DNA of 64,000 nt. Source: an uncultured Bryobacteraceae bacterium (GTDB lineage: Bacteria > Acidobacteriota > Terriglobia > Bryobacterales > Bryobacteraceae). The translations under genes were made by a program, and so were the position numbers. Shown piece by piece: positions 38,726 to 42,835 of the stretch (its first letter is position 1; each line of letters starts with the position of its first letter). The notes beneath the pieces are model-generated. The model made no database searches. It was given only the letters and a program-made list of their open reading frames with translations, and was not told the DNA's origin. The stretch is from the NCBI GenBank assembly GCA_937924525.1, contig CALDSU010000001.1:1-64000 (forward strand), written 5' to 3'.

Positions 38726-40587
38726 AGACCCTCCTGTTGCACAATCTGATTGGTGACGGAGCGGGCATCGACCGGCAGCCCCGTGTAGTGACGGACGCTG
38801 CGCAGGCGGCCCAGTAACGGTACGGGCAGATCCAGCCGCATCAGGCCGAGCAACTGGGCGTCCCGGTTCTGGTCGATGACGTAGACCCGTTCGTGCGCCT
38901 CGAGAAAGCGCTCCAGTTCGGAGGTAAACGGGTACGCCTTCAGCCGCAGGTAGCTGGCCGCGACGCCATACTCGCGGGCAAGCTGGTCGCGGCTTTCCTC
39001 GGCGGCGTAGCGGGACGTGCCATAGCAGACGAAGCCGATGGCCGCGCCGGGGGCGAGCTGAATCTCCGGCGGCGGCACGTCTCCGCGCAGCGCCTCCAGT
39101 TTGCGCGCCAGCCGGTCCAGGTTGTTGACGTAGTCATCTTCCCGCTCGCTGTATTGGGCTTTGTCATTGTGGCCGCTGCCGCGCGTGAAGTAGGCCGCCG
39201 CCGGGTGGGGCGTTCCGGGCAGGGTCCGCCAGCCCACCCCGTCGCCGTCGACATCGCGGTAACGGGCAAACCCGCCCAGCCGTTCGAGATCTTCCGCAGT
39301 CAACACCTTGCCCCGCCGGATCGGCTCCTCCGGATACGGGAACGGATCGGTGACCCAGTTGTTCATCCCCAGATCCAGGTCCGTGTTGATGAAGACCGGA
39401 GTCTGATAGCGCTCGGCAAGGTCGAACGCCAGGCCCGCGAACGTGAAGCACTCCTCTGGTGAAGAAGGGAAAAGAACCGGATGGCGCGTGTCGCCGTGGG
39501 AGAGCACCACGTTCTTCAACGTGTCGCCCTGCGCCGTGCGCGTCGGCAGCCCCGTGGACGGACCTGCCCGCTGCACGTCCACAATCACCACCGGGATATC
39601 GGCATAGTAAGCCAAACCGACGAATTCGGCCATCAGCGAAATCCCAGGACCGCTGGTGGCCGTCATGGCGCGCGCGCCGGCCCAACCCGCCCCGATCGCC
39701 ATCCCGACCGCGGCCAGCTCGTCTTCCGCCTGGACTACGGCGAACGTCGCCTTGCCGGTCTCGGGGTCCTCGCGGAACCGCGCCAGGTAATTGATTAGCG
39801 CCTCGGCCAGCGACGAGGACGGCGTAATGGGATACCACGTGAGCACCGTGACGCCCGCAAAAACGCATCCCAGCGCCAGCGCCGAGTTGCCGTCGATGAT
39901 CAGTTGCCGGCCGCTGGTTCCCAGACGCTCGATCCAGTAGGGATCCTGCTTCGTCAGGTTCTCTTCCGCCCATCGCTTGCCGGCCTGCACCGCGTTCCAG
40001 TTCAATTCGGCCGCTTTCACCTTCCGGGGACCGAACTGCTTGTAGAGCGCCTTGCGCATCTCCTCCAGGTCGATTCCCAGCAGGTGCGCCACCACGCCGT
40101 CGTAGACCATGTTACGGACGAGTTTGCGCAGTCTCGCTTCGGGGCACACCGGGACCGTCAGCTTGTCGAACGGAACTGAATAGAAGGTGACATCCGAGCG
40201 CACGCGGCTCAGGTTCAGCGGCTCGTCGTAGACCACCGCAGCGCCGGCGTCCAGCTTTTCCACGTCTTCCACTCCCGTCTCCGGGTTCATCGCGACCAGG
40301 AAGTCGGTCTCCTTCTTGCGGCCGATGTAGCCCGCCGCGCTGGCGCGGATGGTGAACCAGGTGGGCAACCCGGCAATGTTCGACGGAAACAGATTCTTGC
40401 CGGACACCGGGACACCCATCTGGAAAATGGCCCGCATCAGGACGTTGTTCGCAGTCTGGCTGCCGGATCCGTTGACGGTGGCGACCTGAATGCTGAAGTC
40501 GTTCACCACGCGGGCGGGTTGATCGTTTCGGTGCGCCGAGCGCGCATCGGCGGAGGACAAAGTGGCAGTTACACCAGTGATCGACAT
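38722..40587 (-). CDS. korA: 2-oxoacid:ferredoxin oxidoreductase, fused gamma-alpha subunit
   Basis: A 621-residue subunit with the gamma domain fused in front (~30-200, NDFSIQVATVNGSGSQTANNV) and the alpha pyrimidine-binding domain behind (GNSALALGCVFAGVTVLTWYPITPSSS in parts from ~235; QAEDELAAVGMAIGAGWAGARA; TSGPGISLM). The fused gamma-alpha form is widespread in aerobic bacteria. The start at 40587 is the first that gives a compact N-terminus; upstream codons run into the promoter. A perfect TATAAT on the minus strand lies 30 bases before it. Confidence 0.9.
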   Translation of the reverse strand: MSITGVTATLSSADARSAHRNDQPARVVNDFSIQVATVNGSGSQTANNVLMRAIFQMGVPVSGKNLFPSNIAGLPTWFTIRASAAGYIGRKKETDFLVAMNPETGVEDVEKLDAGAAVVYDEPLNLSRVRSDVTFYSVPFDKLTVPVCPEARLRKLVRNMVYDGVVAHLLGIDLEEMRKALYKQFGPRKVKAAELNWNAVQAGKRWAEENLTKQDPYWIERLGTSGRQLIIDGNSALALGCVFAGVTVLTWYPITPSSSLAEALINYLARFREDPETGKATFAVVQAEDELAAVGMAIGAGWAGARAMTATSGPGISLMAEFVGLAYYADIPVVIVDVQRAGPSTGLPTRTAQGDTLKNVVLSHGDTRHPVLFPSSPEECFTFAGLAFDLAERYQTPVFINTDLDLGMNNWVTDPFPYPEEPIRRGKVLTAEDLERLGGFARYRDVDGDGVGWRTLPGTPHPAAAYFTRGSGHNDKAQYSEREDDYVNNLDRLARKLEALRGDVPPPEIQLAPGAAIGFVCYGTSRYAAEESRDQLAREYGVAASYLRLKAYPFTSELERFLEAHERVYVIDQNRDAQLLGLMRLDLPVPLLGRLRSVRHYTGLPVDARSVTNQIVQQEGL

Positions 40588-40617
40588 GGGCCACCAGCCT
40601 AGGTTTTGATTCCGCAA

Positions 40618-40648
40618 ATTATAAGCCAAAACGGACTCGGTTTGTCCT
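40618..40648 (-). promoter_or_regulatory. korA promoter
   Basis: On the minus strand TATAAT (40623-40618) is a perfect -10, with AGGACA (40648-40643) 19 bases upstream as a partial -35. Transcription would start near 40611, 24 bases before the korA ATG. Confidence 0.6.
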
Positions 40649-40653
40649 AAAAA

Positions 40654-40697
40654 TCGCAAACAAGCCCTGGATTCGCTCTATCTTCGCTTGTTTGCGA
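40654..40697. promoter_or_regulatory. 12-bp perfect inverted repeat between korA and mraZ
   Basis: TCGCAAACAAGC (40654-40665) and GCTTGTTTGCGA (40686-40697) are perfect inverted copies with a 20-base centre. It lies just upstream of the korA -35 and about 30 bases before the first mraZ-type boxes. The half-sites are about three helical turns apart, consistent with a dimeric regulator site; an RNA hairpin is the other option. There is no T run. Confidence 0.5.
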
Positions 40698-40723
40698 CGG
40701 AATCCCGTGCGCACTGAGAGCCT

Positions 40724-40759
40724 AGCGGCACAAGATGGTGTACAGCGGCACAAAATGGT
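40724..40759 (+). promoter_or_regulatory. Four-box, 10-bp-period array before mraZ copy 1
   Basis: GCGG (40725), ATGG (40735), GCGG (40745) and ATGG (40755) recur at exactly ten bases. At the 20-base level AGCGGCACAAGATGGT and AGCGGCACAAAATGGT differ by one base. MraZ proteins are known to bind short direct repeats with 10-bp spacing in front of their own operon, so this is the likely operator. Confidence 0.6.
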
Positions 40760-40802
40760 AAGCAACTCTGGAGTCCGGGTACCCTTGCCCCCGCCGAACG
40801 GG

Positions 40803-41252
40803 ATGTTCGACGTCCGGATCGACGACAAGGGCCGGTTCGCGCTGCCCGCCGGAAACCGCCGGTTTCTGGAGAGTTACGACGGCAGCCTCGTGTTTGTCAC
40901 CAGTTTGGATCACCGGAGAGTCCATGTGTTCTCGCAGTCGGTCTGGCGAGCCATCCGGGAACGAATGCCCGCCGCGGCGAGGTCGAATCCCGACTTGAAG
41001 GATGAGTTGGAGCGGTTCCTGACCCGTGTCAATCTGATCGGCGTCGATACCGAGATGGACAAACAGGGCCGGATTGTTCTCGCTTCCCGGCTGCGGGCGC
41101 GGATGCCGCTGGAGAATACCACTGCGTATGCCTGGGCGCCGGGAGACCGGGTCGAGATGATTCCGGAGGCCGAGATGGTGGCCATCGAGCAGGAACTGCA
41201 CGCGACCAGTGTCCGCGACTACCAGGCGCTTTCTCGGGCATGTTTGATTTGA
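40803..41252 (+). CDS. mraZ: MraZ-type transcriptional regulator, copy 1
   Basis: A 149-residue protein with two SpoVT/AbrB-type half domains, each carrying the DxxGR mark: IDDKGRFALPAGNRRF (~5-20) and MDKQGRIVLASRLRAR (~83-98). MraZ binds DNA as a ring-shaped oligomer and represses the division/cell wall operon in several bacteria. ATG at 40803 gives the family-like N-terminus MFDVRIDDKGR. An in-frame ATG at 40755 inside the fourth operator box would add 16 residues (VSNSGVRVPLPPPNG). Neither has a good ribosome binding site. Confidence 0.82.
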   Translation: MFDVRIDDKGRFALPAGNRRFLESYDGSLVFVTSLDHRRVHVFSQSVWRAIRERMPAAARSNPDLKDELERFLTRVNLIGVDTEMDKQGRIVLASRLRARMPLENTTAYAWAPGDRVEMIPEAEMVAIEQELHATSVRDYQALSRACLI

Positions 41253-41410
41253 ACCAGCAGCACACAAGATGTTGGGTCCCGCGCGGGCTGCCACCCATGC
41301 CGCTGGTGTCCGTCTCCGGAAAACAGGCCACCGCCGGGCTACGGCAAAATTTCTGGAAATCGAGCGAGAAAACCCTTGCATTCATTGAGTTGATCGGGTT
41401 ACGATCGGCC

Positions 41411-41450
41411 TGTGGCCTAAAGTGGCCGATTGTGATAGAAAGTGGCCGAA
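41411..41450 (+). promoter_or_regulatory. Four-box, 10-bp-period array before mraZ copy 2
   Basis: TGTGGCCTAA, AGTGGCCGAT, TGTGATAGAA and AGTGGCCGAA follow each other without gaps, so GTGG or GTGA recurs at 41412, 41422, 41432 and 41442. The 11-base unit AAAGTGGCCGA occurs at 41419 and 41439. AAAGTGG boxes at ten-base spacing are the known MraZ sites of Mollicutes. A weak promoter (TTGCAT 41376-41381, TACGAT 41400-41405, spacing 18) would start transcription inside the array. Confidence 0.65.
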
Positions 41451-41954
41451 CCAGAGCAACGAACGGCGACCACAGTCCCGGCAGAGCCTGCTGGACCGCC
41501 GTTGCTGCCCACTTGGCTCATCTCGGCTTCGGTGGACAAGAAGGGGAGGCTCAAGTTCCCCAGCCTGGCGTTGCAGTACTGGAGGAGCCAGGGCAACCCG
41601 AAGCTGTTTGTGACGAGTCTGGACCGGAAAGTGGGACGCGTATACGCCGCCGCCGACTGGTGGAAAAAGGTCGCGGTGCTGTCGACGCCGGGACCAAACG
41701 CGGCCAAGGCGAACGGACCGCTGTTTCATGCCATCGATCTCGGCGAAGAGGTGGAGATCGACAGCGAGGGGCGGGTGTTGCTGCCGTCGAACATGCGGCG
41801 GGAATTGGGTTTGGAAGACAGCCAAGTCTGGTTGTACCTGAAAAGGGGCCGAATCGACATTCTAAGCGCCTCCGTGTACGAAGCGCGGAAGCGCGAGGCG
41901 ATGGTCAACATTGAAGCTAACCTGGCGGATCTGGAGAACGAAGGGTATCTGTGA
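41442..41954 (+). CDS. MraZ-type transcriptional regulator, copy 2 (divergent)
   Basis: A 170-residue MraZ paralogue. The two half domains carry DKKGRLKFPSLALQYW (~32-47) and DSEGRVLLPSNMRREL (~104-119). It differs strongly from copy 1 outside these motifs. From the GTG at 41442 the protein has a ~20-residue Pro/Ala-rich extension and its start lies in the fourth operator box. A TTG at 41502 (LLPTWLISASVDKKGR) would give a normal-length MraZ and leave the operator in the leader. It overlaps rsmH by GTGA, so this copy sits in the place of the canonical mraZ. Confidence 0.8.
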   Translation: MAEPEQRTATTVPAEPAGPPLLPTWLISASVDKKGRLKFPSLALQYWRSQGNPKLFVTSLDRKVGRVYAAADWWKKVAVLSTPGPNAAKANGPLFHAIDLGEEVEIDSEGRVLLPSNMRRELGLEDSQVWLYLKRGRIDILSASVYEARKREAMVNIEANLADLENEGYL

Positions 41955-42835
41955 CGCACCCACCGGTGATGTTGCGGGAGGTGCTGGAGTGGCTGGCGAT
42001 CCGGCCGGACGGAGTGTACGTCGATATGACTGCGGGTCTGGGTGGGCACACGCGGGAAATTGCGCGACGGCTGACCACCGGATGGGTGCTGGCCAACGAC
42101 CGTGACGCCGCCAGCCTGGAACAGGCGCGGCGGAACACCAGGGAGGAAGCGGACCGTATCCGCTTTCATCGCGGGGATTTTTCCGGCCTCCGGGAGGCCT
42201 TGAGGGAGCAGGGCGTGGAACAGGCGGACGGCGTGCTCGCGGATTTGGGCGTCAGCCGTTATCAGCTCACCTCGCCGGAAAGAGGATTTTCGATCTTGTC
42301 GGATGGGCCGCTCGATATGCGAATGGACCAAAGCCAGGAGGTAACGGCGGCTGATCTGATCAATCACGGTGCGGAAAAGCAACTCGCCGACTGGATCTTC
42401 CAGTACGGGGAGGAAAGGAGGGCGCGGAAGCTAGCCAGAGCAATCGTTCGGGCGCGGCCGATCCGGAGCACTGCACATCTGGCCGATGTGCTGGAGAAGG
42501 CCGTGCCCCGAACGGGTCCCTTGCATCCGGCTACGCGCGTCTTCATGGCCCTGCGCATCGTGGTGAACCAGGAATTGGAGCAGCTCGGTGAATTGTTGCA
42601 GTCCGCTCCGGAGGCGACCAGGCCGGGCGGCCGGATCGTCATCATCTCGTTTCATTCGCTCGAGGACCGCATGGTGAAAGAGCGGTTTCGGAATCTGGCG
42701 CGCGCGGGCCAGGCGGTGTTACTGACCCGAAAACCGCAGCGTCCGGGCGAGGACGAGGTGCGGGACAATCCATCGGCGCGGAGCGCCCGGTTGCGGGCTA
42801 TCGAGGTACGGGGGAGCGTTCAGGCGGCGGCCTGA
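41951..42835 (+). CDS. rsmH: 16S rRNA (cytosine(1402)-N4)-methyltransferase
   Basis: A 294-residue protein (MraW/RsmH) with HPPVMLREVLEWL at the start, the SAM site VDMTAGLGGHTREI (~25-38), DGVLADLGVSRYQL and RVFMALRIVVNQELEQL. The late IISFHSLEDRMVKERF and NPSARSARLRAIE are also typical. It methylates C1402 in the ribosomal P site. GTG start overlaps the stop of mraZ copy 2 by four bases. It is shorter than the usual ~310 by trimming of the helical insertion. Confidence 0.94.
   Translation: MTHPPVMLREVLEWLAIRPDGVYVDMTAGLGGHTREIARRLTTGWVLANDRDAASLEQARRNTREEADRIRFHRGDFSGLREALREQGVEQADGVLADLGVSRYQLTSPERGFSILSDGPLDMRMDQSQEVTAADLINHGAEKQLADWIFQYGEERRARKLARAIVRARPIRSTAHLADVLEKAVPRTGPLHPATRVFMALRIVVNQELEQLGELLQSAPEATRPGGRIVIISFHSLEDRMVKERFRNLARAGQAVLLTRKPQRPGEDEVRDNPSARSARLRAIEVRGSVQAAA

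Follow-up and report, generated by a model that had tools for sequence, protein, structure and literature searches.

In most bacteria the first gene of the dcw cluster is mraZ, and the purpose of MraZ autoregulation is unclear. The MraZ boxes of Escherichia coli are of the TGGG type. The single E. coli MraZ is described as a repressor that acts on its own cluster by way of repeats lying 5' of mraZ (Eraso et al. 2014, as cited in PMC8475190 and PMC7761207), and its loss, as told in PMC8475190, is without apparent phenotype. Repression of the own cluster has also been described for Mycoplasma genitalium MraZ, the box of M. genitalium and M. gallisepticum being AAAGTG[T/G] (PMC8475190), and an activator role in mycoplasmas is mentioned among the work cited in PMC7761207. 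In the case of Burkholderia cenocepacia, MraZ binds a fragment upstream of mraZ, with four 7-nt repeats separated by 3-nt spacers downstream of the -10 (PMC7761207).

The locus described here, found in a 64,000-nt stretch of DNA from an uncultured Bryobacteraceae bacterium (the window), shares much with these systems. As in the two mycoplasmas, direct repeats with a GTGG/GTGT core stand before mraZ, the fold modelled for one of the proteins is the same, and the Mollicutes-type box AAAGTGG, which a preliminary description of this DNA had pointed out in the second array, is present there twice (41419 and 41439). As in B. cenocepacia, the -10 of a dcw promoter is closely followed by four 7-nt boxes separated by 3-nt spacers. 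However, M. genitalium, M. gallisepticum and E. coli have one mraZ and the window has two, with a second, off-consensus array and with start codons inside the last boxes, whereas the mraZ start of B. cenocepacia is 100 bp from the transcription start (PMC7761207). The features of the locus are the following:

40672 to 40687, + strand: TTCGCTCTATCTTCGC, a copy of the TTCGC-N6-TTCGC element that many members of the family carry before mraZ
40723 to 40762, + strand: array 1, four boxes with a period of 10 (GCGG 40725, ATGG 40735, GCGG 40745, ATGG 40755), assessed with a relatives-trained matrix and by family percentile
40755 to 41252, + strand: mraZ1, the distal copy, 165 aa, likely ATG start within the last box of array 1; PF02381
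41376 to 41405, + strand: predicted promoter of array 2, TTGCAT-N18-TACGAT, from a family-trained promoter model
41410 to 41449, + strand: array 2, four boxes with a period of 10 (GTGG 41412, GTGG 41422, GTGA 41432, GTGG 41442), the best four-box site of the window
41442 to 41954, + strand: mraZ2, the rsmH-proximal copy, 170 aa, GTG start within the last box of array 2; PF02381
41951 to 42835, + strand: rsmH (mraW), the first downstream dcw gene; TIGR00006, 295 bits versus a cut-off of 154

The two genes and their products

The + strand carries mraZ1, mraZ2, rsmH, ftsL, ftsI, murE and murF in this order (the names of ftsI, murE and murF were assigned from their reading frames), with an overlap of 4 nt between mraZ2 and rsmH. 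Both mraZ genes are the first genes of the dcw cluster, directly 5' of rsmH, and mraZ2 occupies the same place as the single mraZ of relatives. The upstream neighbour of mraZ1 is a divergent gene for a 2-oxoacid:acceptor oxidoreductase, and the best named relatives of rsmH come from subdivision-3 and Bryobacteraceae or Acidobacteriaceae MAGs.

That the two genes encode divergent MraZ paralogues, each with two DxxGR half-domains, had been proposed from the reading frames and is borne out by the matches to PF02381 (34.2 bits for MraZ1 and 25.5 bits for MraZ2, both above the cut-off of 23), by the half-domains in the alignment (DDKGR/DKQGR in MraZ1 and DKKGR/DSEGR in MraZ2) and by a mutual identity of about 20%. 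When both proteins are aligned with MraZ families, as the same description had advised, every invariant column of the 13- and 15-member alignments is retained by the two of them. In an NCBIfam scan that covered these two proteins only, the best matches were all MraZ equivalog models, at 48 and 29 bits versus a cut-off of 162. The nearest family members share 34% identity with MraZ1 and 41% with MraZ2. The AlphaFold model of MraZ1 has a pLDDT of 91.4, and all 16 of its Foldseek matches below E 0.001 in the PDB are MraZ (E 1e-8), with no other fold among them; they include M. genitalium MraZ in complex with its promoter (9r4j) and with a 4-box promoter (9sz7). The GC3 of mraZ1 is 78%, like that of the neighbouring genes, and its coding composition is thus kept. 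MraZ1 holds 20 of the 26 family-conserved columns; just behind the first DxxGR it has an alanine in place of the lysine found in 107 of 115 relatives (lysine or arginine in 111 of 115), a loss that could change DNA binding.

Box arrays, promoters and start codons

Direct reading of the sequence places the boxes of both arrays, and their ten-base period, exactly where they had first been reported. The arrays do share this phase and differ in box letters, as had been claimed, but array 1 has to be described otherwise than as a simple series: its boxes are of two kinds that alternate in a 20-bp repeat (AGCGGCACAARATGGT twice) with long identical stretches. The GCGG boxes are off-consensus, and the ATGG boxes are common before the single mraZ genes of the family.

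A four-box matrix was trained only on the upstreams of relatives' single mraZ genes, the window being excluded (consensus aAgTGGtccA). Among the 127,922 possible positions of a four-box site on the two strands of the window, array 2 comes first with 27.9 bits and array 1 scores 16.1 bits, the best site unrelated to either array reaching 10.9 bits with the same matrix. The ranking is unchanged when the training set is enlarged and steps of either 10 or 11 are permitted (29.5 bits for array 2, 14.9 for array 1 and 8.8 for the best unrelated site). The boxes of array 1 keep phase and outscore every background site of the window, and a site of this quality is expected about 6e-6 times per base under a Markov-1 model of the local sequence. 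According to pattern searches, each array occurs once in the 5.5-Mb genome, with other matches at about background level, and such uniqueness is the expectation for autoregulatory sites.

Before the roughly 115 single mraZ genes of the family, a -35 like TTGCAA and a -10 like CACAAT are followed by boxes, so the conserved boxes that the preliminary description wished to see in related genomes are there, in the same promoter-then-boxes layout. Array 2, with at least three GTG-type boxes at 10-bp steps next to a dcw promoter, follows this plan. A sigma-70 consensus scan of 40500-42100 gave no promoter, but the family-trained model did detect the one before array 2, which ranks at the 29th percentile among 93 promoters of the family (consensus TTGCAA/CACAAT). 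With the same model, no promoter is recognisable before array 1, whose upstream region scores below all 93 family promoters, and mraZ1 may therefore be weakly expressed. Among the family arrays, whose box chains were found by maximising the very matrix that they train, array 2 stands at the 80th percentile and array 1 at the 16th. We take array 2 with its promoter as a putative ordinary MraZ operator of the family, and array 1 as a worn yet recognisable, putative MraZ-type operator.

A start codon in the fourth box of both arrays (ATG 40755 and GTG 41442) had been noted as a property of the pair; the codons are present, although they are not special to it. In 87 of 116 family loci (75%, with one third expected), mraZ and the core of its last box share a reading frame, counts that are not independent since the loci are related and that, like all those over relatives given here, are uncorrected for shared descent; in 79 of those 87 the in-frame last box reads GTG or ATG. 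The rule is absent from the order-level outgroup, where 3 of 15 last boxes are in frame. Between the start codon in the box and the first DxxGR, 66 nt is the most frequent spacing among the family loci (28 of 116). As ATG 40755 is in frame with MraZ1 at this very distance from its first DxxGR codons, it is likely to be the start of MraZ1, rather than 40803. Across the family, a start codon inside the last operator box suggests a physical tie of MraZ sites to the translation of mraZ. The fitted arrays also contain box steps of 11 bp instead of 10 bp (127 of 393 steps, for example in L103, L069, L066, L109 and L112), which were not found in the published accounts of MraZ operators that we compared.

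Tandem mraZ pairs in the Acidobacteriota

Whether related genomes hold conserved pairs, as had been suggested, has a divided answer. Within the family, an adjacent mraZ pair is found in 1 of 200 genomes, that of the window; no further species of its genus turned up, nor did close relatives of MraZ1 in a search of genome contigs. The second MraZ-like genes of other family genomes sit on separate contigs, none of them in tandem. One of these, full-length and with its own rsmH alongside (G075), may represent a second cluster or a stray contig. Diverged MraZ-like proteins of 183-194 aa with two half-domains were also seen in three genomes (L344, L345 and L346, in G126, G187 and G136), with no rsmH found alongside. 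Tandem pairs are present in four other genomes among 247 sampled across the phylum, and in another Acidobacteriota order, to which two of these four belong (e.g. G281 and G435), 16 of 17 genomes have mraZ-mraZ-rsmH, with full-length genes close together on the same strand; the 17th is a 63%-complete genome without any MraZ match. Two genomes of a third family show the tandem arrangement too. From 80 named rsmH loci, mostly of other phyla, 62 carry mraZ and none of these has it in tandem, and we found no description of mraZ pairs in the titles and abstracts retrieved from the open-access literature.

The tandem of the other order resembles the window in that two MraZ stand in series before rsmH with a box array before each. 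Strict three-box patterns precede 10 of 18 distal copies (0.03 expected in shuffles) and 16 of 19 proximal copies (0.02 expected), and most of the remaining upstreams show box variants by eye, such as AATGTGGAAAAGTGGAAGAAAGTGTGG. Both arrays of one genome carry GTGGAA-type boxes in this order, which favours cross-recognition there. The distal clade (L336-L339, L348-L379) has an array GTGTGGAAAAGTGGAAGAAAGTGTGG, near the Mollicutes box.

In the phylogeny, the distal copies of the other order are united in a single clade (100/100), with the proximal copies in a group of their own. MraZ1 is outside the distal clade: it is placed within a clade of Bryobacteraceae-type MraZs that is separated (100/99) from the distal clade of other families. 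A tree in which MraZ1 is made to join the distal clade is worse by 16 lnL and is weakly rejected (AU p 0.04). Since MraZ1 groups with Bryobacteraceae-type MraZs, tandem pairs have most likely arisen on at least two occasions. Both window copies are long branches, MraZ1 being the second longest in the family trees, and neither a sister grouping of MraZ1 with MraZ2 (p 0.53) nor one of MraZ1 with the G003 copy (p 0.47) is rejected.

Readings of the paired locus

Taken together, these data make it probable that the head of the dcw cluster holds a duplicated, putatively autoregulated mraZ unit, in which dcw control stays with the copy next to rsmH and its distal partner has diverged. MraZ2 would retain a promoter of the ordinary type and, between the -10 and the start codon, a canonical operator of four boxes. 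By the precedent of the MraZ proteins that bind such repeats and repress their own cluster, an MraZ ring on array 2 would then cover the transcription start as well as the start codon, blocking mraZ2-rsmH-ftsL-ftsI and the following genes, and perhaps also the translation start of mraZ2, given that the last box is the start codon. MraZ1, the faster-evolving copy with a degenerate MraZ-type operator, would most likely regulate itself through array 1 and might be capable of acting on MraZ2 or of mixing with it; MraZ1 may share array 2, because array 1 is within the range that is paired with ordinary MraZs of the family.

The preliminary description had instead seen a regulator split into two DNA specificities, MraZ1 reading GCGG/ATGG and MraZ2 reading GTGG, in two insulated loops that together set dcw expression. 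It is true that the box letters differ between the arrays, that MraZ1 is without the near-invariant lysine and that both copies evolve fast, but the score of array 1 is within the variation seen among operators serving single MraZs of the family, where ATGG boxes are common, so its deviation needs no second specificity; moreover, where pairs are conserved order-wide, both arrays of a genome have the same box type. Such a split is conceivable and, in our opinion, unlikely. The 20-bp repeat with its long identical stretches, together with the off-consensus GCGG boxes, might also mean that array 1 serves another regulator or is due to chance. We hold this to be very improbable, as a matrix trained without array 1 ranks it directly behind array 2 in the window, and it has a start codon in its last box at the modal spacing, as in the family.

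If MraZ1 and array 1 were a decaying relic without regulatory function, leaving MraZ2 and array 2 as the working unit, then the lack of a recognisable promoter at array 1, the long branch of MraZ1 and the fact that no other family genome keeps the pair would all fit. Such decay nevertheless seems distinctly unlikely in view of the intact 165-codon frame with its coding composition, the full set of alignment-wide invariant residues, the confidently predicted MraZ fold and the four boxes still in phase. There is also little reason to favour the acquisition of MraZ1 by transfer from another lineage over local duplication: its phylogenetic place is unstable and beyond the family its best pairwise matches go up to 41% across some 100 residues, but it falls inside the Bryobacteraceae-type clade, the distal clade is a weakly rejected home for it, and a family-typical TTCGC element precedes mraZ1.

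This element, a TTCGC-N6-TTCGC direct repeat with an 11-bp step, occurs at 44 of 130 related mraZ loci (among them L066, L069, L103 and L105), where shuffles expect 0 and other spacings give 0-2. It tracks mraZ rather than the divergent neighbour gene, and we regard it as a candidate regulator site of the dcw cluster. In the window it stands before mraZ1 and is absent before mraZ2. With the TTCGC element at mraZ1, and the promoter and canonical operator at mraZ2, the ancestral control region looks divided between the copies, an arrangement that fits the putative tandem duplication of the preferred reading.

More tentatively, and as a proposal that could well prove wrong, Acidobacteriota may at least twice have placed two MraZ regulators one after the other in front of the dcw genes, each with its operator and once fixed order-wide, such that the two would be coupled in one circuit, through mixed rings or as a cascade, and would set division gene expression as a single MraZ cannot. 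A pair of MraZ with separate, comparable operators, together with an order of conserved pairs, offers a direct means of finding out what MraZ reads in DNA, and the same pairs let one ask what a second copy adds.

Two further repeats were seen in these upstream regions. Between the oxidoreductase gene and mraZ1, a perfect 12-bp inverted repeat (TCGCAAACAAGC/GCTTGTTTGCGA, 40654-40697) flanks the TTCGC repeat. NrdR-box-like palindromes, such as CCACAATATATTGTGG, precede mraZ at 5 of 130 loci (L084, L085, L086 and L098 among them), with 0.05 expected.
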